A stretch of 60,825 nucleotides of DNA from an uncultured Alistipes sp. Lineage in GTDB: Bacteria > Bacteroidota > Bacteroidia > Bacteroidales > Rikenellaceae. Positions 6,997 to 48,137 of this stretch are shown in pieces (within the stretch, counting starts at the first letter, position 1; each line of letters opens with the position of its first letter). The stretch is from the NCBI GenBank assembly GCA_944321755.1, contig CALUMM010000009.1, forward strand, positions 1 to 60,825, given 5' to 3'. A program made the position numbers and the translations under genes. The notes below the pieces were generated by a model. It saw nothing but the letters and a program-made list of their open reading frames with translations. It made no database searches and was not told the origin of the DNA.

Positions 6997-9900
6997 ATGA
7001 AACATGAAGGACCCAATCTGTTCGGGTGCAACTTCCTTGTCCCGAAATTCCTCGTCTCGCTGGTCTTGTCGTTGAGTGCGGCGGTCGCCGTCGCACAGAC
7101 CCGGACGATCTCGATCGATTTGCGGAATGTTCCGGTGAAGACCTTCCTCGATGAAGTGGAATCCCGCAGCAACTACACCTTTGCCTACAACAATGCCGAG
7201 ATCGACCTCGCGGCGATCGTGAGCGTCAAGGCCGAATCCGAAGACATCGTGGCGATTGTCGACCGGGTGCTCGGACCCCAGCGCCTCAAAGCCCGCATCG
7301 AGGGCAACCGCGTGATCCTTGCGCCCGCAACGAATGCCGATACGGCCGCCTCCCGTGCCGGAAAGGCGCAGAAGGGTGTGATCTCGGGCCGGGTGACCAC
7401 CGTGGCCGGTGATCCCGTCATCGGCGCCAGCGTGATCGTCAAGGAGACCGGCAGCGGCAACGTAACCGGACTCGACGGCGAATATTCGATCGCCGCAGAG
7501 CCCGGGCAGACCCTGTCGTTCGCTTTCCTCGGCTACAATACCCGGGAGGTCAGGGTCGGAACCCGCACGGTCATCGACATCACCCTCGAAGAGGACAACA
7601 AGCAGATCTCCGAGGTCGTGGTCGTCGGATACACCCCCATGCGCAAGAGCGACTTTACGGGATCGATCGCCAGCGTCAAGGCCAGCGAACTCTCCGTGAC
7701 GGCGCCCACCGTCGGGCAGTCGCTCGTCGGAAAGGTCGCCGGTGTCGAGGTGCACCAGACCAGCGGCGCCCCCGGCGACGGCGTGACGATCCGCGTCCGC
7801 GGCGTCAACTCCCTCTCGGCCAGCAGCGACCCCCTCTATGTGATCGACGGCTATCCCGCGTCGGAGGATGTCTTCATCAACCCGAACGACATCGAGTCGA
7901 TCGATATCCTCAAGGATGCCGCATCGGCCGCAATCTACGGTTCGCGCGGCGCTTCGGGCGTCGTCCTGATCACCACCAAGCGCGGCAAGGAGGGCGAGGC
8001 CGCCAAAGTCAGCTATGACTTCTCGTATGGTATCCAGCAACTCGACCATAAGGTGAAACTACTGGATGCCACGCAGTTCCGCGACCTGCTGATCGACGCC
8101 CGCAACAACTCCTACCGCCTGCGCGCCACGGCCGCCGGTGTGTCGTGGAGCCCCTATGACGACAATTCGGTGCGCGCCGCCAAGGGATTCTCCCTGGCCG
8201 AGGTCGGAATCCCCGACATGTTCTACGACTTCACGACCCGGACGCCCGTCACCCCGCAGTACAATACCGACTGGCAGGACGAGCTCTTCTCCAATGCCGG
8301 AATCATGCGCCACAACATCTCCGTCACGGGCGGCACCAAGGCCATCCGCTACATGGCCAGCGTCGGCTACATGGATCAGGACGGTATCATCGCCCCGTCG
8401 AACCACAACCGCATCAACGCCCGGCTGAACCTCGACGCCCAGATCACGAAGCGTTTCTCCGTAAGTCTGAGCTACTCGATGTACGACGCCAAGAACCGCG
8501 TCGTGCAGGCTGCGGGCCGCATGATCAACGACGGCGTGATCCAGAGCGCCCTGATGTACCTGCCCAACTTCCCCGTCTATGCGGAGAACGGCGACTACGC
8601 CCGCAGCGCCATGATCGCCATGAAGAACGACTGGGGCATCAACTTCCCCGAAAACCCCCTGGCCATCGCCCATGAACTCGACATTCAGGAGAAAATGTCG
8701 CGCCACAACCTCAATGCCAATCTGGTTTACGAGATCATCCCCGACCTGAAACTCTCGGCGCGCCTCGGACAGCAGTGGTACAACTACCGCTATTTCTACT
8801 ACCGCCCGATGAGCCTCGGACGCGACAGCGCCGTGGCCTACAGCGACGCCCTGAAACCCTACAACATCGCCCGCACGACCTCGACCTATGACGTCGACCG
8901 CCTGGGTGAGTTCACGCTCAGCTACAAGAAAGAGTTCGGACGCCACCATTTCGACGCCCTGGCCGGATATACGCTCCAAAAGAAGACCTACGACCGCCTG
9001 GGGGTCGAAGCCACGGGATTCGCCGATGACCGCATCCACGAGGTCACGGCCCACGGCTCCGAAGCCACGGATATCAAACTCTACGATACGCGGAAGGCCG
9101 CCTGGTCGATGATGTCGTTCCTCACCCGTGTGAACTACGCCTTCGACGACCGGTATACGTTCACCGCGTCGTTCCGTGCCGACGGCTCCTCGCGCTTCGG
9201 CGCCGACAGCCGCTGGGGCTACTTCCCCTCGGTATCGGCCGGTTGGACCCTCTCCAACGAACCCTTCCTGAAGGATGCCCTCGACCGCATCGTCTCGATC
9301 CGTCTGCGCGCCAGCTGGGGTAAGAGCGGCAACAACGACATCGGAAACTACGCCAGCATCGCCGCCATCTCGACCGGCAGCTACGCCTTCGGCAATACGC
9401 CCGTGTCGACCACCTACGAGGGCTCGTTCGCCGATGCCGCGCTCGGATGGGAGACCACCACGCAGACCAACCTCGGTATCGACCTCGGATTCTTCAACGG
9501 TCGCCTGAACATCATCGGGAACTACTACAACTCGATCTCCTCGGATATCCTCTACGACTATCCCATCTCCTCGATCTCCGGCGCCACCTCCACCAAGACG
9601 AACCTCAGCGCCGCGAAGATCCGCAACCGCGGTTTCGACCTCCAGCTCGATGCCCGCCTGCTCACCGGAAAGGTCAACTGGAACGTCAGCACCAACATCT
9701 CGGTCAACCGCAACAAGGTGGTCAGCATGGGCGGCCTGGACGACATCATCTCCACGTCGGAGCGCTCCGTGGGTTCGCACATCACCAAGGAGGGCTATCC
9801 GATCGGGTCGTTCTACGGGTACAACGCCATCGGCATCATGTCGAAGGCCGACTATGCCAATGCGCTCCTCGACCGTGAGGTCTATCTCCAGAACGGCAAC

Positions 9901-10554
9901 AAGTTCCCCGAAGGCTACGTGCTGAAAGGCCCCGCCGTGTCGTCCTACTCGCTCGACGCTCTCTCCTACGGAAATGCCATCTGGGAGGATGTCAACGGTG
10001 ATGGCCTGATCACCACCGACGACAAGACCATCATCGGCGACGCCTATCCCGACTTCACGGGCGGTTTCTCGACCAGCCTCTCGTGGAAGGGCATCGATTT
10101 CAGCGCCAGCTTCGCCTACTCCTATGGCGGCGAGGTCATCAACTTCCAGGACTACTACCTCTACAACATGGAGGGTTCGGGCAACCAGTATGCCATCGTC
10201 GCCGACCGTTACATCTCCGACGAGCAGCCCGGACGCAACAACGTCCCCATCGCTTCGCGCATCTCGACGCCCAACACGTCGCTCAAACTCTCGTCCTACT
10301 ATGTCGAGGACGCCTCGTTCTTCCGCTGTGCGAACATCACCCTCGGCTATACGCTGCCCAAGCGCTGGATGAACAAGCTCCATATCGCCTCGTGCCGCGT
10401 CTATTTCAGCGGTGACAACCTCTTCACCATCACCCCGTACCGCGGCTACAACCCCGAGGTATCCTACAAGAGCAGTAACCTGATGCCCGGTTTCGACTGG
10501 GGATGCTACCCGCTCTCGCGCATCTATTCGGTCGGACTGAACCTTACCTTCTAA
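6997..10554 (+). CDS. SusC-type TonB-dependent transporter with N-terminal STN signalling domain
   Basis: Outer-membrane importer of 1185 aa. After a signal peptide (cleavage near residue 33, AVAVAQ), an STN domain (about 35-110, ISIDLRNVPVKTFLDEVE) marks it as a transducing receptor that talks to FecR. Then come a carboxypeptidase-regulatory-like domain (about 128-205), the plug (SEVVVVGYTPMRK, then IRVRGVNSLSASSDPLYVIDG) and the beta barrel, ending in a C-terminal aromatic residue (VGLNLTF). The 99-nt leader shows no TAnnTTTG box, as expected if the ECF factor reads it. SusD follows 6 nt later. The downstream phosphodiesterases suggest a phosphodiester ligand. Confidence 0.95.
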   Translation: MKHEGPNLFGCNFLVPKFLVSLVLSLSAAVAVAQTRTISIDLRNVPVKTFLDEVESRSNYTFAYNNAEIDLAAIVSVKAESEDIVAIVDRVLGPQRLKARIEGNRVILAPATNADTAASRAGKAQKGVISGRVTTVAGDPVIGASVIVKETGSGNVTGLDGEYSIAAEPGQTLSFAFLGYNTREVRVGTRTVIDITLEEDNKQISEVVVVGYTPMRKSDFTGSIASVKASELSVTAPTVGQSLVGKVAGVEVHQTSGAPGDGVTIRVRGVNSLSASSDPLYVIDGYPASEDVFINPNDIESIDILKDAASAAIYGSRGASGVVLITTKRGKEGEAAKVSYDFSYGIQQLDHKVKLLDATQFRDLLIDARNNSYRLRATAAGVSWSPYDDNSVRAAKGFSLAEVGIPDMFYDFTTRTPVTPQYNTDWQDELFSNAGIMRHNISVTGGTKAIRYMASVGYMDQDGIIAPSNHNRINARLNLDAQITKRFSVSLSYSMYDAKNRVVQAAGRMINDGVIQSALMYLPNFPVYAENGDYARSAMIAMKNDWGINFPENPLAIAHELDIQEKMSRHNLNANLVYEIIPDLKLSARLGQQWYNYRYFYYRPMSLGRDSAVAYSDALKPYNIARTTSTYDVDRLGEFTLSYKKEFGRHHFDALAGYTLQKKTYDRLGVEATGFADDRIHEVTAHGSEATDIKLYDTRKAAWSMMSFLTRVNYAFDDRYTFTASFRADGSSRFGADSRWGYFPSVSAGWTLSNEPFLKDALDRIVSIRLRASWGKSGNNDIGNYASIAAISTGSYAFGNTPVSTTYEGSFADAALGWETTTQTNLGIDLGFFNGRLNIIGNYYNSISSDILYDYPISSISGATSTKTNLSAAKIRNRGFDLQLDARLLTGKVNWNVSTNISVNRNKVVSMGGLDDIISTSERSVGSHITKEGYPIGSFYGYNAIGIMSKADYANALLDREVYLQNGNKFPEGYVLKGPAVSSYSLDALSYGNAIWEDVNGDGLITTDDKTIIGDAYPDFTGGFSTSLSWKGIDFSASFAYSYGGEVINFQDYYLYNMEGSGNQYAIVADRYISDEQPGRNNVPIASRISTPNTSLKLSSYYVEDASFFRCANITLGYTLPKRWMNKLHIASCRVYFSGDNLFTITPYRGYNPEVSYKSSNLMPGFDWGCYPLSRIYSVGLNLTF

Positions 10555-34251: not shown

Positions 34252-35763
34252 TCAAGGATTTTGCTGATCCGAGGAAATTTCTGTGTTGTTTTCCAACTCT
34301 ACGGTCGGAATCTTGTAGATCATCCGATAGTCCCGGGCACTGTATGTCATGGCATCGTTGCTGGCTAAAGATGCTGCAAAGTTGGTGGATTTCGTACGGT
34401 CGATGGTTTCGTTGCGCCGCTTCGCATCGAAGATGCGGCACCCCTCACCCCATGTTTCAACCCGCTTCTGGAAGCAGATCTCCTCATAAAGTGCATCTCC
34501 CGACTTGCCGGATGCATCGTATCCCGGAATACGGGTCGACATGACGTCGGTGAGCCATTTGCGGGCGTTGGCCTCATCTTTGTTGAGGTAGTGGGCCTCG
34601 GCTGCGACGAAATACATCTCGGCTACACGCATATAGATCAGATCGCACAGGAAATTGTTCGGGCAAAGGAACTTGTTGGGAACATAGGCCGCAAACCCGG
34701 CAGTCTGAATCTGGGAGAAATCGAACTTGTTGGTATTGAGGGTCTCGCTGTATCCGAACCATCCTTTGCGGATGTCGTTTGCGTCGATCTTGTCAACCAG
34801 GGCGCTGGCACCCAGTTTCGGGTAGTATCCGGGAGGCGCATATCCGTCGACGTAAGGATTCATGTGGGACATGAAGGACCCGTAGATAAGATTCCACTCC
34901 TCGGTGACGGCATAGCCCCAGATCACTTCGCTCATCGACACACTGTTCATACCGGCCAACAGTTCATTCGCTCCGGCAAGCGTACCGCCTTTGGTGGCAT
35001 ATTCAGCCCGCGTGGCAGCCTCATCGTAACGCCCCAGGAACATCAGCGCGTTGGCATAGATTCCCGATGCCGCATATTCATTGATGGCCGTATTGCCGAG
35101 TTGCTTGCCTTTGAGCAGGTCACAGGCCTGGGACAGGTCGGCATCGATGCGTGCGTAAACATCCTTGACGGGTGCGCGCCCGATGATGCTCTCGGATTCA
35201 TCATCGAGAATCAGCGGTACGCCCAATGCGTCGGGATTGGCATCATAGGGCTGCTGCCACATGTTGATAAGCCAATAATAGGCCCATCCTCGCAAAGCAT
35301 ACGCCTGACCCAACATCGCATCGAGTTCGTTGTTCGTACCTGCGCTTGTCTTCAGAACTTCAATGACCGTGTTTGCCGAGGATACGATGTGATAGAACTG
35401 CCGCCACATCGAGACGGGACGCCGATAATCCGGCTCCCGGAAGATCAACTGTTGGTCAAAGGCGAACCCTCCGGAGTTGATGAAGAATGCGATGTCGTCG
35501 CACATGACATCCGTTGCAATCTTGTAGGAAGACATTCCCCAATCATCCTGGGATGAACTCATATAGGGATCGCCGCTGTAAACTGTCGTATAGGCTCCGC
35601 TGATGATGGAGGCGAGCATCTCGGGGTTTTCGAGGAGGATCTCATTCTGCCGATCTCCCGATACTACGCTTGTGGGCTCGGTTTCCAGAAAATCACTTGA
35701 ACAAGATGCAATCAGAGCCCCCGTGCCCAGCACGAGAAGGTATTTGATATGATTTGCTTTCAT
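34252..35763 (-). CDS. SusD/RagB-family lipoprotein (left operon)
   Basis: 503-aa substrate-binding lipoprotein (lipobox ALIASC). FLETEPTSVVSGD follows the cysteine, as in SusD proteins. The SusD core is present: SSANTVIEVLKTSAG, AYALRGWAYYWLINMWQQPY, the MRVAEMYFVAAEAHYLNKDEANA helix and KRVETWGEGCRIFDAKR. It is the second and last gene of a two-gene operon, 13 nt after susC; no hydrolase genes accompany it, so the ligand is unknown. Expression should follow the invertible promoter at 38920-38951. Confidence 0.93.
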   Translation of the reverse strand: MKANHIKYLLVLGTGALIASCSSDFLETEPTSVVSGDRQNEILLENPEMLASIISGAYTTVYSGDPYMSSSQDDWGMSSYKIATDVMCDDIAFFINSGGFAFDQQLIFREPDYRRPVSMWRQFYHIVSSANTVIEVLKTSAGTNNELDAMLGQAYALRGWAYYWLINMWQQPYDANPDALGVPLILDDESESIIGRAPVKDVYARIDADLSQACDLLKGKQLGNTAINEYAASGIYANALMFLGRYDEAATRAEYATKGGTLAGANELLAGMNSVSMSEVIWGYAVTEEWNLIYGSFMSHMNPYVDGYAPPGYYPKLGASALVDKIDANDIRKGWFGYSETLNTNKFDFSQIQTAGFAAYVPNKFLCPNNFLCDLIYMRVAEMYFVAAEAHYLNKDEANARKWLTDVMSTRIPGYDASGKSGDALYEEICFQKRVETWGEGCRIFDAKRRNETIDRTKSTNFAASLASNDAMTYSARDYRMIYKIPTVELENNTEISSDQQNP

Positions 35764-35776
35764 GTTTGTCTGCTAT

Positions 35777-38700
35777 TTAAAAGTTGATGGTAACGCCACC
35801 CGAAACGGTGCGCAGAACCGAGTAGTTTGCCTGCGACTGTCCCTGGATGTACTGGCGCGGATCAAGACCCTTTCGTTTCGACAGCAAGGCCACATTGTCT
35901 GCCGCAACATAAATGCGCACGCTCGACATCTTGATGGCCTTTGCCCACTTTTGCGGCAAGGTGTATCCCAGGGTGATGTTGCGCAGGTTGAAATAGGAGG
36001 CGCTGATCATGTAGGGATCCAGGGCCTGGGTCTGATTGTTGTTGCCGTTGAGTTTGGGCACATTGGTGTTGGTGTTTTCGGGGGTCCAGGCATTCAGAAT
36101 ATCCTTGTGCCAGTTGGCGCCGTCCGAAGTACCGGCATGCATCAGACTCTTGTACATTGCATCGTACACCTTGCCTCCGATCTGGTAGTTTCCGGCAATC
36201 GAGAAGTCCAATCCTTTCCAGTTGAAATTGATCGTGATGCCGCCAATGAAATCGGGGATGGCCGTGCCGAGATAAAATTTGTCACCTACGGCATCCGTAT
36301 TCTCATAGGTCACCTTGGTCAGCGTCTCTTTTCCGGTTTCATCCGTTTCACGATGCCAATAAAGTGCATCTCCGGTTTCGGGATCCACCCCGGCCGATTT
36401 GAGCCCGTAGAAGTCCCATACCGAACCGCCGTCCTTGATGTTGTAATAGGAGAGGTGGGTGATACCCGTTTCCAGTTTGTCGGCCGGCAGATCCGTTACG
36501 GAGTTGGTATAGGTCGTTCCGGTCAGGATTACCTCCAGCGACGTATTTTTCGTCCGCAGAGGAACGGCACTGAGCGTGAATTCGAAGCCCTTGTTGATCA
36601 TGGTCATGATGTTCATCGGCTTGCTGGGGATGCCGGTCGACGGCGAGAACGGCATATCATAAAGCATGTCGCTCGTTTTCTTGTGGAAATATTCCGCATT
36701 GAGGTTGAACCGTGCGTCGAACAGCGAGACGTTGATGCCCGCATTGAGGTTGTTGGAAACCTCCCAGGTCAGATCCGGATTGCCCCAATAGACCTGGGTG
36801 ACGGAGAATTCGTCGCCGTTGGGGCTTACAGAGTACTGATCCTTGTAGGGATAGTAGTTCGGAATCTGGTTGTTTCCGGTCGTACCGTAAGAGACCTTGA
36901 ACGCTAAATTGTTAATCCACTCCACGTCTTTGAGGAAACTCTCCTGCGAAATGCGCCAGTTGGCTCCGACCGACCAGAAAACGCCCCAACGGTTCGCCTT
37001 GGCGAAGCGCGACGATCCGTCACCTCGGATATTGGCATCGATGTAATAACGATTGCCATATTCGTAATGGAGGCTTCCGAACCACGATTCGATCGTTTCG
37101 TCGTAAGTGTACGAGTTGAGATTCTGCATGGAGATGGCATTGCTGAATTCGCTGTTTTCCGGGTCGTAGTAGTTTTGCTTGGTTCCCGTGAAATAGCGGT
37201 ATTCCCATTTGTAGGATTCATGACCGGCCATGACGCTGAAGGCGTGATTGCCAATCGTCTTTTCATAGGTAAGCAACTGGTTACCCGTCAGGGTCTGATC
37301 CCGGAGTGTATAGCGGGTTCCTGTTCCGTTGTAGGTCTTGGCATCGCCGTATGAAGGCGTCATGAAGCTGACATTCTGCTGGTTGGTCAGGTCGTAGGAG
37401 AGATTGGCCGAGAACTTCAAGCCTTCCAGGATGCTCAGGTTGATACCGGCACGGGTACTGATCTGATCGGTCAGCGTTTCGTTCTTGTTGGCCTTGTCCG
37501 TTGCTACGATGTTCTGTCCCTTACCCCAGGAGCGGGTTCCATAGGTGCCGTCTCCGAAGTCGTAGATCCGACCTCCGTTCTCGTCGCGGATCAGATTTCC
37601 GTCCTTGTCGTAGGCGTAGACCGGGTAGATCGGGGCGATGCTCTGGATGAACATAAACGTATTGTTGTAATCGCTCAGTCTGGAGATCATCTGCGAATTC
37701 TGCTCTCCGTGCGAATAGGCGAGATTTCCGTAGAGGTCGACCCATTTGTTGACCTGGTAGGAGGCGTTGGCACGTCCCGAATAACGCGAATAGTCCGAGT
37801 TTTTGATGATACCTTCGTCGTTGAGATAGCCCAGGGACATGAAGTGCTTGAGTTTGTTATTTCCGCCCGAGATGCTGACATTGTACTCCTGACGCAGGCC
37901 TGCATGGAGTGCCTCGTCGCTCCAGTCATCCGTATAACGACGCTGGGTGGAGATGAGTTCTCCGTCTTCGGTCATGAGTTTGTCCGGAGTGGCCGAAATA
38001 TAGGGATTGTATCCCAGGCGATTCAAGATGACGCTTGCTGCCGTAGCACCATCTCCTTCCGTATTGACCAGATACTGATAAAAGGTCTTCAGATACTGGT
38101 CGGGAGAGGTCATGATGTCGTAATTGCCGACGCCGCGGGAGTTGACACCCACGCGAGCGTCGAACTGAACGTTTGTGCGGGTGGCGTTACCCTTTTTGGT
38201 GGAAATGATCACCAGACCGTTTGCGGCACGGGAACCGTACAGGGCGGTCGACACGGCATCCTTCGAGACGGAGATGGATTCGATATCCGCCGGATTGATG
38301 GCAGCGATGCTGCCGTTGTACGGAGCTCCGTCCACGATATAGAGCGGGTCGCTTCCGGCGTTGATCGAGCCGATGCCTCGGATCGAGATGGTGGAACTCG
38401 ATCCGGGTTGTCCCGATTGGGAGGCTACCTGAACACCGGGAACAAGGCCTTCGAGAGCTTTAGAAACGTTGGAGACCTGCAATTTTTTGAGTTCCTCACC
38501 GGATACTGCACTGACGGATCCCGTGAACGACTCCTTTTTTGCGGTACCGTATGCCACGACGATCACATCGTCGATTGCATGGGTATCTTCCTGTAAGGAT
38601 ACGTTGATTTGGGTTTTGCCGGCGATCGACACTGTTTGGGTTTGGTAGCCGATGAACGAGATTTTCAGTGTACCGTCAGCGGGAGCCGAGATTGAAAAAC

Positions 38701-38878
38701 GTCCGTTGGCATCGGTTGTCGTACCGACAGTCGTACCCTCCACCAGAACCGTAGCTCCGGCGATCGGTCGATTGTCCATATTGGCAACCGTACCGGTTAC
38801 TTGCTTACTTTGCGCGGAGGCGAGCAGCACTCCCCCCCCCACAATGGCAATTAACGATAGTAGGAAATTTCTTACCAT
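35777..38878 (-). CDS. SusC-type TonB-dependent transporter (left operon, promoter currently facing it)
   Basis: 1033-aa outer-membrane importer. Signal peptide (about 1-22, ending LLASAQ), carboxypeptidase-regulatory-like domain (about 25-100), plug (AIDDVIVVAYGTAKKESFTGS, IRGIGSINAGSDPLYIVDG), barrel and the terminal VTINF. It has no STN domain, and no sigma/FecR pair is adjacent, so control is not by transenvelope signalling. Instead the start codon lies 18 nt from one arm of a 23-bp inverted repeat next to a strong promoter. Codons 14-17 of the signal peptide contain a G9 run; loss or gain of one G would destroy the protein. Confidence 0.93.
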   Translation of the reverse strand: MVRNFLLSLIAIVGGGVLLASAQSKQVTGTVANMDNRPIAGATVLVEGTTVGTTTDANGRFSISAPADGTLKISFIGYQTQTVSIAGKTQINVSLQEDTHAIDDVIVVAYGTAKKESFTGSVSAVSGEELKKLQVSNVSKALEGLVPGVQVASQSGQPGSSSTISIRGIGSINAGSDPLYIVDGAPYNGSIAAINPADIESISVSKDAVSTALYGSRAANGLVIISTKKGNATRTNVQFDARVGVNSRGVGNYDIMTSPDQYLKTFYQYLVNTEGDGATAASVILNRLGYNPYISATPDKLMTEDGELISTQRRYTDDWSDEALHAGLRQEYNVSISGGNNKLKHFMSLGYLNDEGIIKNSDYSRYSGRANASYQVNKWVDLYGNLAYSHGEQNSQMISRLSDYNNTFMFIQSIAPIYPVYAYDKDGNLIRDENGGRIYDFGDGTYGTRSWGKGQNIVATDKANKNETLTDQISTRAGINLSILEGLKFSANLSYDLTNQQNVSFMTPSYGDAKTYNGTGTRYTLRDQTLTGNQLLTYEKTIGNHAFSVMAGHESYKWEYRYFTGTKQNYYDPENSEFSNAISMQNLNSYTYDETIESWFGSLHYEYGNRYYIDANIRGDGSSRFAKANRWGVFWSVGANWRISQESFLKDVEWINNLAFKVSYGTTGNNQIPNYYPYKDQYSVSPNGDEFSVTQVYWGNPDLTWEVSNNLNAGINVSLFDARFNLNAEYFHKKTSDMLYDMPFSPSTGIPSKPMNIMTMINKGFEFTLSAVPLRTKNTSLEVILTGTTYTNSVTDLPADKLETGITHLSYYNIKDGGSVWDFYGLKSAGVDPETGDALYWHRETDETGKETLTKVTYENTDAVGDKFYLGTAIPDFIGGITINFNWKGLDFSIAGNYQIGGKVYDAMYKSLMHAGTSDGANWHKDILNAWTPENTNTNVPKLNGNNNQTQALDPYMISASYFNLRNITLGYTLPQKWAKAIKMSSVRIYVAADNVALLSKRKGLDPRQYIQGQSQANYSVLRTVSGGVTINF
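38832..38840 (-). repeat. G9 homopolymer in the susC signal-peptide codons
   Basis: Nine consecutive G on the coding strand (C on the plus strand) encode part of IVGGGV. The current length keeps the frame open. Such runs are classic slippage sites. Confidence 0.9.
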
Positions 38879-38896: not shown

Positions 38897-38919
38897 TTTT
38901 TAAAATAAAAAGTCCACGG
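38897..38919 (-). repeat. Left 23-bp inverted repeat (IRL) of the invertible segment
   Basis: Read on the minus strand it begins CCGTGGACTTTTTATTTT and ends with five A. It is identical to 40639-40661 on the plus strand. The -7 promoter box abuts its inner edge, so transcription would start inside the repeat. Confidence 0.95.
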
Positions 38920-38951
38920 CAAAGGTAGGCAAATGCGAAAAGCTTTACAAA
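38920..38951 (-). promoter_or_regulatory. Invertible promoter facing the left susCD operon
   Basis: On the minus strand: TTTG (38951-38948), exactly 20 nt, TACCTTTG (38927-38920). This is an ideal Bacteroidetes promoter. It lies inside the segment bounded by the inverted repeats. No equivalent promoter is present inside the right end, so only one of the two operons is served at a time. Confidence 0.88.
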
Positions 38952-39048
38952 TAAACGACGAAAAAAATCAAACAAGGTGATATTATTGTTCATTTAGGAC
39001 AAAATACATTACATTTTCATCGTATTTATAAAAAATAAATTGCAATTT

Positions 39049-39071
39049 AAAACCGCTGTTTTGCGGTTTTT
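39049..39071. terminator. Bidirectional hairpin terminator after the recombinase gene
   Basis: AAAACCGC (39049-39056) pairs with GCGGTTTT (39063-39070), followed by more T on the plus strand. On the minus strand it lies between the recombinase stop codon and the invertible promoter, so it would shield susC from recombinase transcription. Confidence 0.7.
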
Positions 39072-39152
39072 CGGACTTTGACTCCTATTTTCATCTTTTT
39101 TTCTTCTTGTTTTCTTCTATTTCCCGGCTTTTTCCAGCCAATCGGACGATGA

Positions 39153-40397
39153 TCAGATTTCAACCGGGACCGGAACCAGGTCCTGATACAGGCTGTCGAT
39201 CTTCTTCGAAAGAAGCATCATGTCCCTTTCGAGTTTCGAGGGGGTGATCTTCGCATAGATCTGTGTCGTCCGCACGCTTTTATGTCCCAGCAACTCACTG
39301 ATCGTCTCGATTGCCATCCCCTGTGAGAGTGTAATCGTGGTAGCAAACGTATGGCGTGCCACATGAAACGTAATCCGACGGGTGATGCCCGCCATGGCCA
39401 TCAGCCGCTCAAGACACGAATTGCACCAACCGTTGGTCGGCAGGTCGAATATGGGGGTGTCGCATCCGTCGGGCAGATACTTCCGGACGATCGCACGGGC
39501 CACGTCGAACAGCCGTATATGGACCGGAGAGCCGGTTTTTTGGCGGAACGTATGGATCCACAGGCAATCGCGTGTCCTCTGGAGATGCCGGGGCGTCAGC
39601 CTGCGAAGATCGATATAGGAGAGTCCCGTGAAGCAGCTGAACAGAAAGGCATCCCGGATCAGTTGCAGAGTTGGTGACTCGGGTTTGAGGCGTATGATGC
39701 TCCGCAGTTCCGGCATGGAAAGGTAATTCCGGGTGACGGATTCGCAATTCAACTTGTAGTCGGCGAACGGATTACGATCCATGTATCCGTGTTCCCGCGC
39801 CAGCATGAGGATATGTTTGAAGGCAATCATATAGACCCAGGTCGTATTCTTCTTGCGGTTGCATTCCAACACCATGTAACGGTGGAAATCCGCCAGAAAT
39901 TTACGGTCTATCTCTTTGAAACGAAGGTCGTTGCATCCATAATGCTCCGGAATGAACCTTTCAAGATGACGGTATACGCTTCTGTATTTATAATAGGTCG
40001 TCTTGCTTCGGGAGATTCCGACCATGCGATGAAATTCGTCGTTATGCCTGCGGAAAAAGTCCAACAGACCGTGTTTTCGCTGGTCGATTCCCAAATAGCG
40101 CTCCTTGATCATGCAGGGAGTTACCGGGACCTGTTCGCAAAGCAACGTATGATAGCAATGTTCAATACGATAGTGGATCCGGTCGAGTTGTTCATTGACG
40201 AGCAACGCTTGGCTGCTCCGTCCGATGGCACGTCCCAGACTGGCATTCCAAAGCTTGAGCGGTACGGATTGTCGGGTCGAGATTTGCGTGCGTTCGCCGT
40301 TGAGGGTGATGCGCCCCATGATGGGAATATTCCCATTCCGCAAAGGGGCATTTTTCTTGGCGTAAAACAGGATTTTAAACGTGTTTCTCATGCTCAT
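39153..40397 (-). CDS. Tyrosine site-specific recombinase (IntDOT-like family)
   Basis: 414 aa. An N-terminal arm-binding part and a SAM-like core-binding domain (about 105-210, LLDFFRRHNDEFHRM, YKYRSVYRHLERFI) precede the catalytic domain. Residues seen: lysine in RQKTG, H345 and R348 in HVARHTFA, histidine in LLGHKSVRTTQIYAKI and the nucleophile Y381. The first catalytic arginine is replaced by S260 in FTGLSYIDL, a change known in IntDOT. It lies between two inverted repeats with susC genes on both sides and no conjugation or phage genes nearby, so inversion rather than integration is its likely job. An alternative start two codons later is possible. Confidence 0.92.
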   Translation of the reverse strand: MSMRNTFKILFYAKKNAPLRNGNIPIMGRITLNGERTQISTRQSVPLKLWNASLGRAIGRSSQALLVNEQLDRIHYRIEHCYHTLLCEQVPVTPCMIKERYLGIDQRKHGLLDFFRRHNDEFHRMVGISRSKTTYYKYRSVYRHLERFIPEHYGCNDLRFKEIDRKFLADFHRYMVLECNRKKNTTWVYMIAFKHILMLAREHGYMDRNPFADYKLNCESVTRNYLSMPELRSIIRLKPESPTLQLIRDAFLFSCFTGLSYIDLRRLTPRHLQRTRDCLWIHTFRQKTGSPVHIRLFDVARAIVRKYLPDGCDTPIFDLPTNGWCNSCLERLMAMAGITRRITFHVARHTFATTITLSQGMAIETISELLGHKSVRTTQIYAKITPSKLERDMMLLSKKIDSLYQDLVPVPVEI

Positions 40398-40638
40398 AAC
40401 CTAACGATTTCGATCCCTAAAGGTAACGTTTAAGTAACGACCGAAACTTCCATGATCAAATCCAAACGGCGTATTTTCAAATGAATGATCCTTTGTTTGG
40501 GGTTACCTCCCGGTAACGGACCGCCTGCACTTCCGGATCGGAGAAATTGATTGTCCGCTCACAATCAATAATTTGCGGATTTACGTGGATATCCGCACTA
40601 ACGCATTTATGCTCAGGTATTTAAAGACTCGATCCGGT
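40398..40638. promoter_or_regulatory. Recombinase upstream region: candidate promoter and repeats
   Basis: On the minus strand TACCTTTA (40425-40418) is a near match to TAnnTTTG, 21 nt before the recombinase start. GTAACG occurs three times between 40423 and 40520, twice followed by ACC or GACC. ATTGATTGT (40546-40554) and ACAATCAAT (40561-40569) form a 9-bp inverted repeat, and GCGGAT/ATCCGC a further hairpin. They may be recombinase accessory sites. No plus-strand TAnnTTTG box lies near the right repeat. Confidence 0.4.
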
Positions 40639-40661
40639 CCGTGGACTTTTTATTTTAAAAA
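40639..40661 (+). repeat. Right 23-bp inverted repeat (IRR) of the invertible segment
   Basis: Exact inverted copy of 38897-38919. It lies 98 nt before the start codon of the right susC. The inner flank (GATCCGGT) contains no promoter in the present orientation. Confidence 0.95.
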
Positions 40662-40700
40662 AACAACGGAATAACATTTTATCCCATTCAGCTTGAAGAA

Positions 40701-40720
40701 CCCGAATACACCCATTCGGG
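40701..40720 (+). promoter_or_regulatory. Hairpin in the right susC leader
   Basis: CCCGAAT (40701-40707) pairs with ATTCGGG (40714-40720). No T run follows, so it is more likely an mRNA leader structure than a terminator. Confidence 0.45.
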
Positions 40721-40759
40721 CGTTATGGATTCGTACACTCACTTCTAAACCATTTATGC

Positions 40760-43700
40760 ATGAGAAAATTTTTACTGCTGTTAATCATCATTAACCTGAG
40801 CTTGTCGAGTGCTTTTGCACAGGTTAAGGTGTCCGGTAGCGTGACGGATTCCGAAGACGGAATGCCGATTATCGGTGCTACCGTGACTGTGAAGGGTACC
40901 GCCAGCGGAACCGTCACCGATACGAAAGGTGCGTTTACCATCTCGCTGCCTTCCACCCCCGGAACGATCATCGTCTCGTTCCTCGGGTATCAGGAACGGG
41001 TGATCGCCGTGTCGAAGGGTATGACCCGTGTGGACGTGAAACTCGAAAAATCGACCACCGCAATCGACGATGTCGTCGTGACGGGTTTCAAAAATGCCAA
41101 GAAGGAGACTTTTACGGGATCCTCGGTCAAGATCAGTGCCGATGATATCGCCATCGCCGGTGTGACCGACGTGAGCCGTATGCTCGAAGGCCAGGTGGCC
41201 GGCGTCTCGGTCCAGAACGTCTCCAGTACGTTCGGTTCGGCCCCCAAGGTCCGCATCCGCGGTGTGACGTCGCTCAGCGGTGAGAACAAACCCCTTTGGG
41301 TCGTGGACGGAGTCGTCCTGGAGGATGTGGTCAACATCTCCAACGACCAGCTTTCGAGCGGTGACCCCACGACGCTGCTCGGATCCTCCGTAGCCGGTAT
41401 CAACGCCTCGGATATCGAGACGTTCGACATCCTGAAGGATGCCGCCGCAACGGCTCTCTACGGTGCCCGTGCCATGAACGGTGTCGTGGTGATCACCACC
41501 AAGAAAGGTAAGCAGGGCGCTCCCCGGATCTCCTATACGGGCAACTTTACGATCCGTACCAAACCGCGCTATTCGAATTTCGACATCATGAACTCCGCCG
41601 ACCAGATGGCCGTCTATTCGGAGTTCGAACGCAAGGGCCTCCTCAATCAGGATATCGTCAACACCTCGAATTCGGGTGTCTACGGACTGATGTACAATGC
41701 CATTGCGGCCTACGACCCCGAAACGGGATTCGGACTGGCCAATACGCGGGAGGCGCGGAATGCCTTCCTGATGCAGTACGCCAAGGCCAATACCGACTGG
41801 TTCGATATCCTCTTTACGCACAACCTGCTCCAGGAGCACTCGCTGAGCATCTCGACCGGTACCGAGAAGTCGCGGACCTACGCCTCGATCGGTTTCATGA
41901 ACGATGCCGGATGGTCGGTTGCCGACAACGTGAGCCGTTATACGCTCAACTTCCGCAACGATTACGACATCAGCCGCAAGATTTCGGTCGGCTTCCAGGC
42001 CGTGGCGTCGCTGCGTCAGCAGGAGGCGCCGGGATCCTATCAGCGGTCGATCGACGTGGTGAGCGGCGAGTGGTCGCGTGACTTCGACATCAACCCCTTC
42101 AGCTATGCGCTCAATACGAGCCGGACGGTCCGCCCCTACGACAACGACGGCAATCTGGAGTACGTGACGATGAACTACGCTCCGTTCAACATCCTTAAAG
42201 AGCTGCAGGAGAACAAGATCCAGCTCAATGTGATGGATGCCAAGCTGCAGGGACAGTTCGACTACAACATCGTCAAGGGGCTCCGTTTCAACTTCACGGG
42301 AATGCTCCGTTATGTCAAGAGCGACCAGGTTCACCGGATTACCGAGGAGTCGAACGTCGCCGGAGCCTACCGTGCCGACGGCAACTCGACGATCCGCCAG
42401 CGGAACCGCTACTTGTGGACCAATCCCGACGATCCGAATGCCGAGCCGGTTTCGGTCATGGAGCAGGGCGGTTTCTACAACACGACCAACAATACGATGC
42501 TCAACTACGAGGTGCGCGCTTCGTTTGCCTACAACAAGGTCTGGAACAATGTCCGCACCCATGAATTGAGCATTCTGGCCGGTACGCAGATCAAGTATCT
42601 GGAGCGCGACAAGGAGACGGCGATCCAGGCCGGTTATCAGTACAACATGGGCGGCGTGGTCTTCAACAACCCGCTGTTCTACCGCATGATGAACGACCGC
42701 CAGCTGGATCTTTTCACGGCGACGACCTATCAGGACCGTTTCGTGGCCTTCTATGCCAATGCCGACTACGCCTTCGACCGGAAATACTCCGTTTCGGCCA
42801 CGGTGCGTTACGACGGAAGTAATGCGCTGGGTTCGAGTTCGAGCGCCCGGTGGCTTCCTACGTGGAACTTCGGAGCCAAGTGGAACCTGCAGAACGAACC
42901 CTTCCTGGAGGATGTGGAGTGGCTCGATGTCCTGAGCGCGCGTCTGAGCTACGGTCTGACGGCCAGTATGCCCAATGCGTCGAATGCCGCAGCCGTCTAT
43001 TACAGCTCCCAGGTATACCGTCCGGGCTGGAGCGAGAACCAGATCAGCATCGATGCGCTGGCCAACTCCGAGTTGACGTGGGAGAAGAGCTACCAGTTCA
43101 ATGCGGGCTTCGACCTCACGCTCTTCGACAACCGGCTCAACTTCTCGATCGACTATTTCAACCGTCAGGGCTTTGACCTGATCGCCTATATCAAGACCTC
43201 GGGAATCGGCGGACAGTCGTGGAAACTGGCCAACTACGCCGACCTCGATTCGCATGGTGTGGACATCACGCTGGGCGGTACGCTCATCCGGACGAAGAAC
43301 GTGACCTGGACCGCAAACTTCACGTTCGGCTATTCGGAGAATACGATCAAGAACGCCAAGGACCAACCGTCGGTTTACGACCTGGTGAAGAGCGAGGGCG
43401 GCAACAAGGAGGGCTATCCGGTGAACAGCCTCTTCTCGATTCCCTTTACGCGGCTCGATCCCCAGACCGGTATTCCGCTGTTCATCAATGCCGACGGCGA
43501 GGAGAGCCAGGATGTGAACATGCAGGGTACGGAGACCGACTTCCTGAAATACGAAGGCCCGGTGGACCCGAAATACACGGGCGGTTTCAATACGTCGGTT
43601 CGTTTCAAGAACTTCACGTTCAACGCCTTCTTCACCTACCAGGCCGGGAACAAGATCCGTCTGACGCCCGCCTACAATGCGCAGTACAGCGATCTGGACG

Positions 43701-44077
43701 CCATGTCGAACGAATTCAAGAACCGGTTCCTGATGACGGGCGACAACATCTCGCCGTCGATTTCGGACTGGGTTCACCAGTCGATTTCGCTCGATCAGGG
43801 CTATCCTTACGTCAACTACAACTATTCGACGGCCCGGGTCGTGAAGGGCGATTTCATTCGGCTGAAGACCATTTCGCTCAATTACGATTTCTCTCCGGCG
43901 TGGGTCAGCAAGAGCCGTTTCTTCCGGACTGCAAGTCTGCGCCTGACGGTCAAGGACCCGTGGTTGATCTATGCGGACAAGGCGCTGAAGGGTCAGGATC
44001 CCGAGTTCTTCAATACGGGAGGTGTGGCCATGCCTACCACGACGCAGTTTACGCTTTCGCTGAACCTCGGATTCTAA
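40760..44077 (+). CDS. SusC/RagA-type TonB-dependent transporter (right operon)
   Basis: 1105-aa outer-membrane importer. Signal peptide (about 1-21, ending SSAFAQ), carboxypeptidase-regulatory-like domain (about 24-100), plug (AIDDVVVTGFKNAKKETFTGS, VRIRGVTSLSGENKPLWVVDG), barrel and terminal SLNLGF. No STN domain. It differs clearly from the left SusC and has no promoter of its own in view; it is predicted silent until the segment 38897-40661 flips. SusD, a zinc peptidase-like lipoprotein and a DUF4302 lipoprotein follow, a set suggesting protein or peptide use, as for RagAB. Confidence 0.94.
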   Translation: MRKFLLLLIIINLSLSSAFAQVKVSGSVTDSEDGMPIIGATVTVKGTASGTVTDTKGAFTISLPSTPGTIIVSFLGYQERVIAVSKGMTRVDVKLEKSTTAIDDVVVTGFKNAKKETFTGSSVKISADDIAIAGVTDVSRMLEGQVAGVSVQNVSSTFGSAPKVRIRGVTSLSGENKPLWVVDGVVLEDVVNISNDQLSSGDPTTLLGSSVAGINASDIETFDILKDAAATALYGARAMNGVVVITTKKGKQGAPRISYTGNFTIRTKPRYSNFDIMNSADQMAVYSEFERKGLLNQDIVNTSNSGVYGLMYNAIAAYDPETGFGLANTREARNAFLMQYAKANTDWFDILFTHNLLQEHSLSISTGTEKSRTYASIGFMNDAGWSVADNVSRYTLNFRNDYDISRKISVGFQAVASLRQQEAPGSYQRSIDVVSGEWSRDFDINPFSYALNTSRTVRPYDNDGNLEYVTMNYAPFNILKELQENKIQLNVMDAKLQGQFDYNIVKGLRFNFTGMLRYVKSDQVHRITEESNVAGAYRADGNSTIRQRNRYLWTNPDDPNAEPVSVMEQGGFYNTTNNTMLNYEVRASFAYNKVWNNVRTHELSILAGTQIKYLERDKETAIQAGYQYNMGGVVFNNPLFYRMMNDRQLDLFTATTYQDRFVAFYANADYAFDRKYSVSATVRYDGSNALGSSSSARWLPTWNFGAKWNLQNEPFLEDVEWLDVLSARLSYGLTASMPNASNAAAVYYSSQVYRPGWSENQISIDALANSELTWEKSYQFNAGFDLTLFDNRLNFSIDYFNRQGFDLIAYIKTSGIGGQSWKLANYADLDSHGVDITLGGTLIRTKNVTWTANFTFGYSENTIKNAKDQPSVYDLVKSEGGNKEGYPVNSLFSIPFTRLDPQTGIPLFINADGEESQDVNMQGTETDFLKYEGPVDPKYTGGFNTSVRFKNFTFNAFFTYQAGNKIRLTPAYNAQYSDLDAMSNEFKNRFLMTGDNISPSISDWVHQSISLDQGYPYVNYNYSTARVVKGDFIRLKTISLNYDFSPAWVSKSRFFRTASLRLTVKDPWLIYADKALKGQDPEFFNTGGVAMPTTTQFTLSLNLGF

Positions 44078-44106
44078 ATGATTATTGAACCAACAAAGAG
44101 ACAGTT

Positions 44107-45807
44107 ATGAGAAAATTGATAGCAGGGTTGTCGGTTGTTTTCATGGTGGGTTTGTTCGCCTCTTGCAACAAATTCCTCGATGAGATGCCCGATAACCGGA
44201 CACAGATAGACAATTTGGAGAAGGTCAAGGCTTTGCTTGTGACGGCCTATCCGGCGAAATGCTATGCGACGTGGCTCGAACCCCGCTGCGACGGGATGGC
44301 TGACCACGGGGCAACCCTTGACGGCACCCAGCCGAGCGCGAGCTTCGCATTCATTTATACGGCTTACCGATGGGACGAATATCCCAGCATGGAGAACGAC
44401 GATGATGCCGAAGCCTATTGGACGGCCTGCTACGGGGCGATTGCCGCGGCCAATCATGCCCTGGAGGCCCTCGACGAATTGGGACACCCGAAGGGCAGCG
44501 AACCCTACCGTGCCGAGGCACTGCTTTGCCGGGCCTATGCGCACTTCTGCCTGCTGACGCTCTTCACGGACTTCTTCGACGAGGCAAACCGCGGAACCAA
44601 TCCCGGTATTCCCTATGTGACCGAGCCGGAGGATGTGATCAACAAGCAGTACGACCGGGAGACGGTTGCGGCGACGCTGGCCAAGGTAAAGGACGATCTG
44701 GCCGAAGGCCTGAAGGGAGTGGGTACGGCTTCGGATTTCGTGCAGCCGAAGTTCCACTTTACGCTCGATGCGGCCCGGATGCTGGCCCTGCGTATCGCCC
44801 TCTTCGAACGGGACTATCCCTCGGTAATCTCCTATGCCTCGCAGTTGATTCCGCAGCCGACGAATTTCGTCAATATCGTGGATCAGCAGCAGCAACCCCT
44901 GCTCAATGCCGACGGTTCGGAGGTCAAGATCCCGCATCCCAACGATTTCGCATCGCTGTTCTGCGTGAGCAACCTGTTTGACTGGCGATCCGCGAATAGT
45001 GCGTATTCGGGGTCGACGGAGTTCCAGTTGGCCTTCTGCAATGCCAACAATGCGAACATCATTTTGGCCGGAGAACCCTATTCGCTGCTCAACAGAACCT
45101 CGATGTCGACGGCCTATACCCGTTATACGCACGGAGGCAAGGAGTTCAATGCGATTCTGGGCGCGAACGCGTCGGGCGTGAACTGGTACATGCCGATTTT
45201 CGGATTCAATGGCGCACCGGCGGATGCTCCGGGATTCCTTCCCAAGATTTATGAGGATTTCAAGGTCACCAACATCAATGCCAATACGGGCCAGCCGTAT
45301 GTCCGGTTTGCCCTGTTCCGGCTGGAGGAGGCGTTGCTTGCCCGTGCCGAGGCCTATGCCATGACGGGTGAATACGACAAGGCGCTGGCCGATTTGACGA
45401 TGTTCTCCCAGCGGCGGGTCCAGAGCGAAAATATCGTTCAGTATTACTATTCGCGCGACAAGGTCGTCGACTATTACACCGATATTCTGACGTTGTCGGA
45501 TCACTACATGAATTCCAATTTCAATGCGGGGCGCTTCTCGGCCGCTCTTTCGACCTACGAGGGCAAACTGCAGCGGGGACTGGTGTTGGCCGTACTCGAT
45601 GCCCGCCGCATGGAGTATATTTACGAAGGAATGCGCTGGTTCGATATTCTGCGTTGGAACATTCCGGTTACGCACACGATGCTTTCGGGTGAGAGCAGCA
45701 CGCTGACGCCCGACGACGACCGTCGTGTGATTCAGATTCCGGAGACCGCTTCGCTTTCGGGCCTTGAGAAGAATTCTTACGACCATATTCCGCAGCCCTG
45801 GAGTTAG
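44107..45807 (+). CDS. SusD/RagB-family lipoprotein (right operon)
   Basis: 566-aa surface lipoprotein (lipobox LFASC) with NKFLDEMPDNRT after the cysteine. Helices typical of SusD follow: AAANHALEALDELG, RAEALLCRAYAHFCLLTLFTDFF, FRLEEALLARAEAYAMTGEYDKALADL and the end ARRMEYIYEGMRWFDILRW. It is longer than the left SusD. It begins 29 nt after susC and ends 2 nt before the first ATG of the next frame, so co-translation is likely. Confidence 0.93.
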   Translation: MRKLIAGLSVVFMVGLFASCNKFLDEMPDNRTQIDNLEKVKALLVTAYPAKCYATWLEPRCDGMADHGATLDGTQPSASFAFIYTAYRWDEYPSMENDDDAEAYWTACYGAIAAANHALEALDELGHPKGSEPYRAEALLCRAYAHFCLLTLFTDFFDEANRGTNPGIPYVTEPEDVINKQYDRETVAATLAKVKDDLAEGLKGVGTASDFVQPKFHFTLDAARMLALRIALFERDYPSVISYASQLIPQPTNFVNIVDQQQQPLLNADGSEVKIPHPNDFASLFCVSNLFDWRSANSAYSGSTEFQLAFCNANNANIILAGEPYSLLNRTSMSTAYTRYTHGGKEFNAILGANASGVNWYMPIFGFNGAPADAPGFLPKIYEDFKVTNINANTGQPYVRFALFRLEEALLARAEAYAMTGEYDKALADLTMFSQRRVQSENIVQYYYSRDKVVDYYTDILTLSDHYMNSNFNAGRFSAALSTYEGKLQRGLVLAVLDARRMEYIYEGMRWFDILRWNIPVTHTMLSGESSTLTPDDDRRVIQIPETASLSGLEKNSYDHIPQPWS

Positions 45808-45836
45808 TCATGACAGAAAAAGCAAAAAGAAAGAGT

Positions 45837-46781
45837 ATGAAAAAGACGAAAGTTATATACGCTCTCCTGTTGATGGGACTGGCCTTCGGGGCCCTTTCCT
45901 GCCGGGAGAAGGAGACGATTGCCGACGATATCGTAATTCCCGGGCTGGGCGGAACGGAAGAGGCGGCCAATGACCTGGACAAATGGCTCTACGAGAATTT
46001 CACCGAGCCCTACAACATCGAGGTGGTTTATCGTTGGGATGCGGCCCAGATGTACACGACGCTTGCCTCGCGGCTGGTGCCCGTGGAGTTCGATGCCGTA
46101 AAACCCATGATGGCGGCGATCCGCGACGTGTGGTTCGAACCCTACATCCAGGCTGCCGGTGCGGATTTCATCAAACAGATGTCTCCGAAGAAGGTGGTTC
46201 TGGTCGGAAGCCCCGAGTATCAGAATGGCTCGATCAAGTTGGGCCAAGCCGAAGGTGCTCGTAAGATTCTGTTGCTCAATGCGAACAATTTCGATCCGAC
46301 CGACGAGGCGGGGCTCAAGCAGGCATTGCATACCATTCTGCACGAATTTGCCCATATCCTGCATCAGACGGTGATGTTCGACAAGACGTATCAGGATATC
46401 AGCGCGGGTTTCTACAATGCGACGGGCTGGAAGGAGTACGACCGGAACCAGCCGACGGATTATAATCCGGAATCCTATGCCCGCGGTTTTGTCAGCAACT
46501 ATGCCATGAGCGGCAAGGACGAGGATTTCGTGGAGGTGCTCTCGATGATCCTGGTCTACGGCAAGCAGTGGTTCGACGAGACGGTGCTGCCTGCCGCCGA
46601 GAAGTCGGAAGAGACCGATGCATACAACGCCCTTCAGCAAAAACTGTCGATGGTGGAGAGTTATCTGCTCAACTCCTGGGGTATTCGCTTCCTGGACGAT
46701 GAGGTGACGGGAGAGCGCGGTCTTGAGAGTTATGTGCAGGAGGCGGTGTCCAAGGTCGTAGCGACTCCTCCGATGGAGTAA
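45837..46781 (+). CDS. Lipoprotein with zinc metallopeptidase motif (Peptidase_Mx-like)
   Basis: 314 aa from the ATG at 45837, which starts the lipoprotein signal (GLAFGALSC); an in-frame ATG at 45810 gives 9 more residues. The HEFAHILHQ sequence (HExxH) in the middle, with a downstream glutamate in DEDFVEVLSMIL, is the zinc-site pattern of the putative zinc-binding metallopeptidases common next to SusCD in Bacteroidetes. It probably trims proteins or peptides before uptake by the right SusCD pair. The substrate is not known from sequence. Confidence 0.85.
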   Translation: MKKTKVIYALLLMGLAFGALSCREKETIADDIVIPGLGGTEEAANDLDKWLYENFTEPYNIEVVYRWDAAQMYTTLASRLVPVEFDAVKPMMAAIRDVWFEPYIQAAGADFIKQMSPKKVVLVGSPEYQNGSIKLGQAEGARKILLLNANNFDPTDEAGLKQALHTILHEFAHILHQTVMFDKTYQDISAGFYNATGWKEYDRNQPTDYNPESYARGFVSNYAMSGKDEDFVEVLSMILVYGKQWFDETVLPAAEKSEETDAYNALQQKLSMVESYLLNSWGIRFLDDEVTGERGLESYVQEAVSKVVATPPME

Positions 46782-46805
46782 GTATCATTCAAAAAACAAC
46801 GGAAC

Positions 46806-48137
46806 ATGAAAAAAACTATCAGTATAGTAGCATTACTCTTCGGGCTGTCGTTTCTGACGTCGTGCGAATCGACGGTCACGATGGACGGCAGTGTCGATGC
46901 GCGTGTCGATGCGGTGATCAAGGGGTATATCGAGACGCTTGCGGATGCCGAGAGCGGTTGGATTTTCGATGTGATGACCAGCGAGGGCAATTACCGGTTC
47001 TACATGGAGTTCACCGATGACAACATGGTGACGATGTATACGGACAATCTCTATTATCCGCAGTGGAACGGCGTACCCAAGACCTCGACCTATAATATCC
47101 GGTCGCTGCAGCGCCCGACGCTGTCGTTCGACACCTATTCGTATCTGGCCGTGATCAACGATCCGGACAACGGCATCAGCCATGGTTCGGGGAATATGGG
47201 TCTTCAGACAGATTTCGAGTTTGAGGTCGAGACCTTTACGGATGGAATTTTCTATCTGACGGGCCGGGTCAACCGGGTTGAAGCGACGTTGCGTCCGGCA
47301 ACGGCCGAAGAGTCCGCCTCGGTGAAGTCGGGCGGTTTGATGGATGTGCTCACCAATGCTCAGAACTACCGTGCGGGAGAGTATTGTTACTTTATGATCG
47401 GGGAGACGAAGGTGAGCCTGATCCTCAATGCACGTTCGATCGATATTTCGTATGTGGATTCGGAGGAGAATGTGATCCAGGCCTCGGGTTATACGCGGAC
47501 CGATCTGGAGGGGAACATCAGTTTGCTGGAGCCGATCGAGGTTGCGGGCGAGATGTTGACCGGTTTTACCTGGGATTCTTCGGCATCGGCCTTTGAGGCC
47601 GATGTTGCGGGCGCTCCGCAGATTGTCGATGCACAGGCCGATCCGGTTATTCCGCTCCATTACATGCTGGGCCCGAATAAGACTTATACGGTTCTGGCCT
47701 CTATGTTGGACATGTATCCGACGTATTCTGCTTCGGAGAATGAATTTGCCTATTTGTTCTCCCAGGCCTATATGAAGATCGCTCAAGGATACGGTTTGGA
47801 ATTGCAGGAGCTGGATCTGGAGTTTTACATGACGGAAGGAGGAGCTCCGCGCATGATGATGGTATACTATTGCAGCGGTTATCAGGGATGGGTGACCTAT
47901 TCGCTGACGTTCAACGAAACGGAGGATCAGTTTACGGTTACCGGGATGTCGTTCGATGATGATGCCTACGGCAACGGAGCTCTCTTTGCGAATGCTTATA
48001 CGGCGTTGCCGTTGTTCTGGATGAACAAAACCTTCAAGATCGACTGGTTGAAGATGGTTTATGGATCTTATTCCATGGGTCAGGTTGTTTTGGTTGATGG
48101 CCAGACGCCAGCCGCTTTCCACGGAGCGCTTTTCTGA
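46806..48137 (+). CDS. DUF4302-type lipoprotein
   Basis: 443-aa predicted lipoprotein (LSFLTSC, Cys about 20). The mature start VDARVDAVIKGYIETLADAESGW and the following YRFYMEFTDDNMVTMY pattern resemble DUF4302, found in Bacteroidetes operons with SusC, SusD and the zinc-peptidase lipoprotein. No catalytic motif is recognised; a surface binding role is plausible. It is the last gene of the right operon, 21 nt before a strong terminator. Confidence 0.8.
   Translation: MKKTISIVALLFGLSFLTSCESTVTMDGSVDARVDAVIKGYIETLADAESGWIFDVMTSEGNYRFYMEFTDDNMVTMYTDNLYYPQWNGVPKTSTYNIRSLQRPTLSFDTYSYLAVINDPDNGISHGSGNMGLQTDFEFEVETFTDGIFYLTGRVNRVEATLRPATAEESASVKSGGLMDVLTNAQNYRAGEYCYFMIGETKVSLILNARSIDISYVDSEENVIQASGYTRTDLEGNISLLEPIEVAGEMLTGFTWDSSASAFEADVAGAPQIVDAQADPVIPLHYMLGPNKTYTVLASMLDMYPTYSASENEFAYLFSQAYMKIAQGYGLELQELDLEFYMTEGGAPRMMMVYYCSGYQGWVTYSLTFNETEDQFTVTGMSFDDDAYGNGALFANAYTALPLFWMNKTFKIDWLKMVYGSYSMGQVVLVDGQTPAAFHGALF

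Follow-up and report, generated by a model that had tools for sequence, protein, structure and literature searches.

Two divergent susC-susD operons lie side by side in the genome of an uncultured Alistipes sp., separated by a short segment in which a recombinase gene and a promoter are enclosed by inverted repeats. The locus raises the question of whether this segment turns over, and whether a single promoter could in that way serve either of two receptor operons. The window, as the term is used here, is the whole stretch of DNA analysed (60,825 nucleotides, contig CALUMM010000009.1). The reading favoured, with a probability of about 0.85, is a self-contained two-way promoter switch, in which the embedded recombinase would flip the 1.7-kb segment and the promoter would drive either operon.

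Structure of the locus

The following features were read directly from the DNA and from profile matches to the translations.

34252..35763, minus strand: left susD (PF14322, PF07980)
35777..38878, minus strand: left susC, a SusC/RagA TonB-linked receptor, faced by the promoter at present (TIGR04056, Pfam)
38897..38919, minus strand: left inverted repeat, proposed recombination site, on the promoter side at present (23/23 match to the right arm; exact inversion junction against genome G158)
38920..38951, minus strand: outward promoter, TTTG-N20-TACCTTTG, on the recombinase 3′ side of the segment (0 mismatches; same place in 19 measured loci)
39049..39070, no strand assigned: hairpin between recombinase and promoter, possible but weak bidirectional terminator (folding energy; not conserved)
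39153..40397, minus strand: tyrosine recombinase inside the invertible segment, 414 aa (open frame, Pfam domains)
40639..40661, plus strand: right inverted repeat, proposed recombination site (23/23 match to the left arm; junction against G158)
40760..44077, plus strand: right susC, without a promoter in the present orientation (TIGR04056; no outward promoter match)
44107..45807, plus strand: right susD (PF14322, PF07980)
45810..46781, plus strand: zinc metallohydrolase lipoprotein Peptidase_Mx1, right operon (TIGR04549, Pfam)
46806..48137, plus strand: DUF4302 protein, right operon (Pfam)

The two repeats were identical at all 23 positions in inverted orientation, and each lay just before an outward-facing susC gene, the left start being 18 bases outside the left repeat and the right start 98 bases outside the right one. 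On both sides the SusC/RagA receptor was followed by a SusD-family gene, which is the composition of a SusC/SusD import operon. The nearest solved structures by sequence were the SusC homologue 8aa4 for the left receptor and 8ypu/8ypt for the right. The first-pass annotation had described the exact 23-bp repeats, the susC genes outside them, the enclosed tyrosine recombinase, a consensus promoter touching the left repeat and present at that end only, and a right operon of SusC, SusD, metallopeptidase and DUF4302; all were recovered here, the four genes of the right operon by profile matches.

No third copy of the repeat with three or fewer mismatches was found across the genome (2.88 Mb, 168 contigs, 87% complete). 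When the two 600-nt flanks were shuffled 300 times under a Markov model, exact inverted repeats reached at most 12 bp, and a chance origin of the 23-bp repeats was rejected on this result together with the presence of only two copies in the genome.

The recombinase had an intact frame with the domains Arm-DNA-bind_5 (PF17293), Phage_int_SAM_5 (PF13102) and Phage_integrase, the last being the catalytic domain of tyrosine recombinases (PF00589, E 8.9e-12). Its translation contains the stretches HVAR, LGH and IYAK, which we take to be the catalytic motifs, and a Ser at the position of the first arginine, presumably as in IntDOT.

Promoters were sought by consensus matching alone. The promoter at 38951-38920 (minus strand) matched the Bacteroidales consensus perfectly, abutted the left repeat and read outward across it; a promoter flanked by inverted repeats and reading out across one of them is the arrangement of an inverton. 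Two perfect matches (spacing 19-21) were present in the whole 60.8-kb window, and the chance of a perfect match in a 233-nt stretch was approximately 0.006 under a Markov model of the same length and composition. A separate promoter for the right susC had been named in the first-pass annotation as evidence that would speak against a switch; the consensus search found no outward promoter with two or fewer mismatches in 40398-40759, which runs from the recombinase start to the right susC.

The hairpin at 39049-39070 has an 8-bp stem with T-runs beside it and folding energies of −12.0 and −12.8 kcal/mol on the two strands, which were equalled by 2 of 200 and 1 of 200 shuffles, respectively. It is a plausible but weak candidate for the bidirectional terminator claimed earlier: the hairpin and its T-runs are present, but no comparable conserved hairpin was found at other switch loci in a crude scan, and a terminator as a conserved part of the family was not supported.

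Inversion between related genomes

The locus or a close relative of it was found in four other genomes, namely G153 (a genome in one contig), G158 (CALUNH010000004.1), G009 (DXDA01000074.1) and G152, whose copy is divided between CALUKL010000061.1 and a second contig. The sister species G158 keeps both susC genes in the order found in the window. Over 1.5 kb its flanks are 97.3% and 98.3% identical to those of the window, and its inner segment, 89% identical, is reversed exactly at the repeats. Both junctions are exact: the promoter end joins the leader of the right susC and the promoterless end joins that of the left susC. The whole segment, recombinase and promoter together, is inverted, in line with the earlier claim that the recombinase turns with the segment. 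In G153, G152 and G009 the promoter points toward the left side as in the window, and the left susC of G009 is another gene, approximately 34% identical to that of the window.

A second pair, G138 and G179, carries homologous loci with susC proteins 96.7% and 95.5% identical and recombinases 73% identical. Their flanks, at 89.9% and 91.5% DNA identity, run the same way; the segments, 72.7% identical, run opposite ways. Both orientations of one locus, as expected of an inverton, were therefore seen between species in two cases (window and G158, G138 and G179), with one genome representing each state. A mobile element with its own ends was disfavoured by the inverted orientation of the repeats, the constant flanks and a difference limited to the orientation of the inner part.

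These comparisons support the earlier interpretation of an invertible promoter offering an either/or choice of receptor. That the promoter moves to face the other susC held in both species pairs, but which operon is transcribed in each orientation we infer from promoter position. In the proposed mechanism, the recombinase encoded in the segment would recombine the two 23-bp inverted repeats and so turn over the 1.7-kb segment. The promoter beside the recombinase 3′ end would read outward across a repeat while the receptor genes stayed in place, driving the left susC-susD operon in the present orientation and the right susC-susD-metallopeptidase-DUF4302 operon after inversion, and a cell would display one of two outer-membrane import receptors at any time. 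Since one promoter would serve both operons, no regulator would be needed to make the two receptors mutually exclusive; among the immediate neighbours no regulator gene able to explain an either/or choice was noticed. To judge from the position of the promoter, transcripts would start within the repeat, which would leave the leader of each operon unchanged by a flip. Flipping would presumably also occur inside one living population.

A different arrangement is considered unlikely, namely that one operon alone is tuned and the right susC is served by a promoter of its own outside the segment, either non-consensus or dependent on an activator. It would suit a promoter search made by consensus alone and the longer right leader (98 nt from repeat to start codon), but 40398-40759 gave no match at two or fewer mismatches and G158 has a consensus promoter before the same operon.

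The recombinase family and its sites

Searches of 180 Alistipes genomes, with up to the ten best candidates considered per genome, gave at least 83 recombinase matches (E up to 1e-80) in 59 genomes. With one weaker homologue (L051), 84 were examined, and the surroundings of all 84 were fetched. Two outward susC genes within 900 bp were present at 19 of these; five had one outward susC and a contig end opposite, two had one susC only, 44 had no adjacent susC, and 14 had none and lay near a contig end. In a maximum-likelihood tree (midpoint root, for drawing only) all 19 two-sided loci fell on one side of a branch with 100/100 support. That clade of 34 rows comprised the 19 two-sided loci, six one-sided loci and nine without an adjacent susC; no two-sided locus was found among the remaining 50 rows.

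Promoters were measured at 18 two-sided loci (all but L107) and at L061, and at each of these 19 the best match just inside the core of the recombination site was taken at both ends. At the recombinase 3′ end there were 0 mismatches in 12 loci, no more than one in 18 and no more than two in all 19; at the opposite (5′) end the best match had 3 to 6 mismatches in 19 of 19. Because the promoter is always at the recombinase 3′ end, the design is one of one recombinase, one promoter and two outlets.

The segment might instead invert through another recombinase acting in trans, with the embedded enzyme working elsewhere. Cross-acting invertases are known, Tsr19 of B. fragilis being described as one (PMC4747536), and Alistipes genomes contain several homologues. 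The repeat, however, is present only twice in the genome at three or fewer mismatches, both times beside the embedded gene, and within the recombinase tree the susC-flanked loci all belong to a single branch; such action in trans is regarded as very unlikely. Under the favoured reading of a self-contained switch, the embedded recombinase would itself catalyse the inversion.

Outside Alistipes, a susC neighbour within 1.5 kb was found at none of 22 loci in 20 of 393 order-level genomes, with up to four of the best candidates per genome scored, and the arrangement may still occur in other genera; the twenty-first matching genome was that of the window. A single scan of viral contigs with a 21-base exact pattern of the site, which detects exact copies only, gave no matches.

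Eight related recombinases (L062, L063, L065-L067 and L069-L071) form a sub-branch with no susC within 900 bp. One of them, L066, lies directly upstream of a response-regulator/PglZ-like gene, named from its translation.

A 15-bp core, TTTTTATTTTAAAAA in outward reading, is common to the sites and lies 7-10 bases past the promoter, with core variants in family members farther from the window. In the window, G153, G158 and G009 the left and right arms agree at every position over 21-23 bp. The G009 site differs by one substitution that is present in both arms alike, as expected if inversion keeps the arms alike. A one-base difference separates the 15-bp cores of the two ends at L050 and at L058. 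At L052 and L053 the arms are identical inward only as far as the core. These imperfect arms weigh against the favoured reading, as do the nine rows of the clade that lack a neighbouring susC, the weak terminator and the recognition of the promoter by consensus. At many loci identity between arms extends outward into the 5′ start of both susC genes.

At L057 (G145) a divergent susC pair shares at least 350 identical bases of leader and 5′ coding sequence (8007-8356 and 10161-10510), a degree of identity that would permit gene conversion or homologous inversion. At the window, where the arms are only 23 bp, ordinary homologous recombination is an unlikely cause of inversion; at long-arm loci such as L057 it is possible.

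Cargo exchange and additional sites

The receptor genes beside the switch vary between species. Related susC genes turn up beside different partners: genes of the L050_A type are present at L064, L068 and L061 too, the two at L057 are related to L050_B and L052_B, and L049_A resembles L058_B. Along the right operon of the window, 44.0-48.0 kb is 98.4-100% identical to G009 and 88.6-91.8% identical to G153, G158 and G152; over 43500-48000 the identity to G009 is 97-100%, though its recombinase is only 82% identical. The stretch 41.0-43.5 kb is nearer to G153, G158 and G152 than to G009. A recombination breakpoint near 43.5-44 kb of the window is read from these identities, and the contrast along the right operon marks it as a mosaic produced by exchange.

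In G141 (L058, 15372-18679) a third susC, 5 kb farther along, repeats exactly the core site and leader of the left, promoter-side susC; no promoter was found there. Recombination between the left and third sites could bring the promoter to the third operon, making a three-way switch possible. Throughout the 180 Alistipes genomes the core-plus-leader pattern occurred at 26 sites in 17 genomes. Twenty of these were at the switch-family loci examined, and six were elsewhere (G008, two in G011, G012, G139 C28 and G166). With six of 26 sites outside switch loci, a large store of dispersed silent susC cassettes was not supported.

In G011, G012 and G166 (L153, L154 and L166) three contigs end exactly at the core or 2 bases from it, before a susC-like start. 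No close recombinase was found in these three assemblies, the best identities being 40%, 34% and 29%. The breaks are perhaps assembly forks caused by mixed orientations in the sample; other causes are possible.

Recombinase frames are open in G153 and G009 too. In G158 (L046, recombinase 8152-9384) the gene is interrupted by an in-frame stop near codon 162, a position estimated by eye, and this switch may be locked or the stop may be an assembly error. Both G152 contigs (L047 1-133, L048 1-140) end inside the recombinase gene with approximately 130-140 unrelated bases, which looks like an element inserted near the HxxR motif. Since the gene is broken in G158, and apparently also in G152, the switches of these two genomes may have stopped flipping.

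These observations bear on whether the switch is a fossil that inverted occasionally during species divergence and is now inactive, each species being fixed in one state. Orientations do differ between species only, and the recombinase is broken in G158 and apparently in G152. Against this are the intact 414-aa recombinase and exact arms of the window, the open frames of G153 and G009, and the three contigs from three other Alistipes genomes that end at or 2 bases from the core, as mixed orientations could cause; a frozen locus is judged quite unlikely, and an active switch remains the preferred reading.

A wider proposal, for which the odds appear about even, is a genus-wide Alistipes family of autonomous promoter-selector cassettes with exchangeable SusC/SusD cargo, up to three positions and the capacity to be locked. 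The cassette would consist of the recombinase, one promoter and the 15-bp core, and a shared leader and signal-peptide stretch would often come next. It would act as a standard socket, with different SusC/SusD operons plugged in on either side and cargo exchanged between species, growing to three positions as in G141 and locking on loss of the recombinase as in G158 and G152.

Comparison with known systems

If the proposed mechanism is correct, a compact genetic coin-toss within 1.7 kb would decide which nutrient receptor is shown by a gut Alistipes cell, and perhaps also which phage or antibody target is displayed. The same switch with other receptor pairs, in at least 18 other Alistipes genomes, would open a direct way to ask which receptors selection keeps apart, and it could provide a portable two-state selector for Bacteroidales genetics.

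In the Hin flagellar switch of Salmonella the recombinase gene and a promoter lie within the inverting segment; Hin is a serine recombinase, and its promoter serves one operon, which also encodes a repressor. Invertible promoters and Tsr-type inversions of surface operons in Bacteroides were reportedly described by Weinacht in 2004, and the SusC/SusD shufflon of B. fragilis is said to have been described by Nakayama-Imaohji in 2009. The window resembles Hin in having the recombinase gene and promoter inside the inverted segment; it differs in that its enzyme has tyrosine-recombinase domains in place of those of a serine recombinase and its promoter would serve two divergent operons. The Hin switch is treated in a review (PMC11868660).

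According to PMC4747536, invertible promoters of B. fragilis are ON or OFF, and the gene for Tsr19 (BF2766) lies near a local invertible promoter, the enzyme acting also on a distant one. With such systems the window shares inverted repeats, a promoter inside, a tyrosine recombinase and surface-structure operons; unlike in the Tsr19 case, its recombinase is inside the segment and its promoter is common to two divergent operons. The same source describes the Tsr0667 shufflon, in which one enzyme mediates multiple inversions involving three clusters and nine other regions (PMC4747536). There too DNA inversion varies SusC/SusD proteins, but such a shufflon has several sites and more than two SusC/SusD genes, whereas the window has a single segment with two sites, lying between two operons that stay fixed (two sites at three or fewer mismatches, genome 87% complete). 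G141, with its third site, looks intermediate between the window switch and the shufflon.

In B. intestinalis, large inversions of TonB-dependent-transporter/SusD clusters, often flanked by a recombinase gene, are described in PMC8375218. SusC/SusD-type loci invert in both cases, often with a dedicated recombinase gene; in that account whole clusters invert, whereas at the window the receptors stay and the promoter and recombinase invert. Gut Bacteroidales commonly carry invertible regions close to susC/susD, and 311 invertible regions are tabulated for 39 Bacteroidales genomes (PMC10939037); loci of the present type may already be among them. Within the limited scope of the open-licence literature, no description of an Alistipes SusC either/or switch was recognised. 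The parts are known, and the arrangement differs: the recombinase is inside the segment, one promoter is placed for two divergent SusC/SusD operons, and the cargo changes across the genus.
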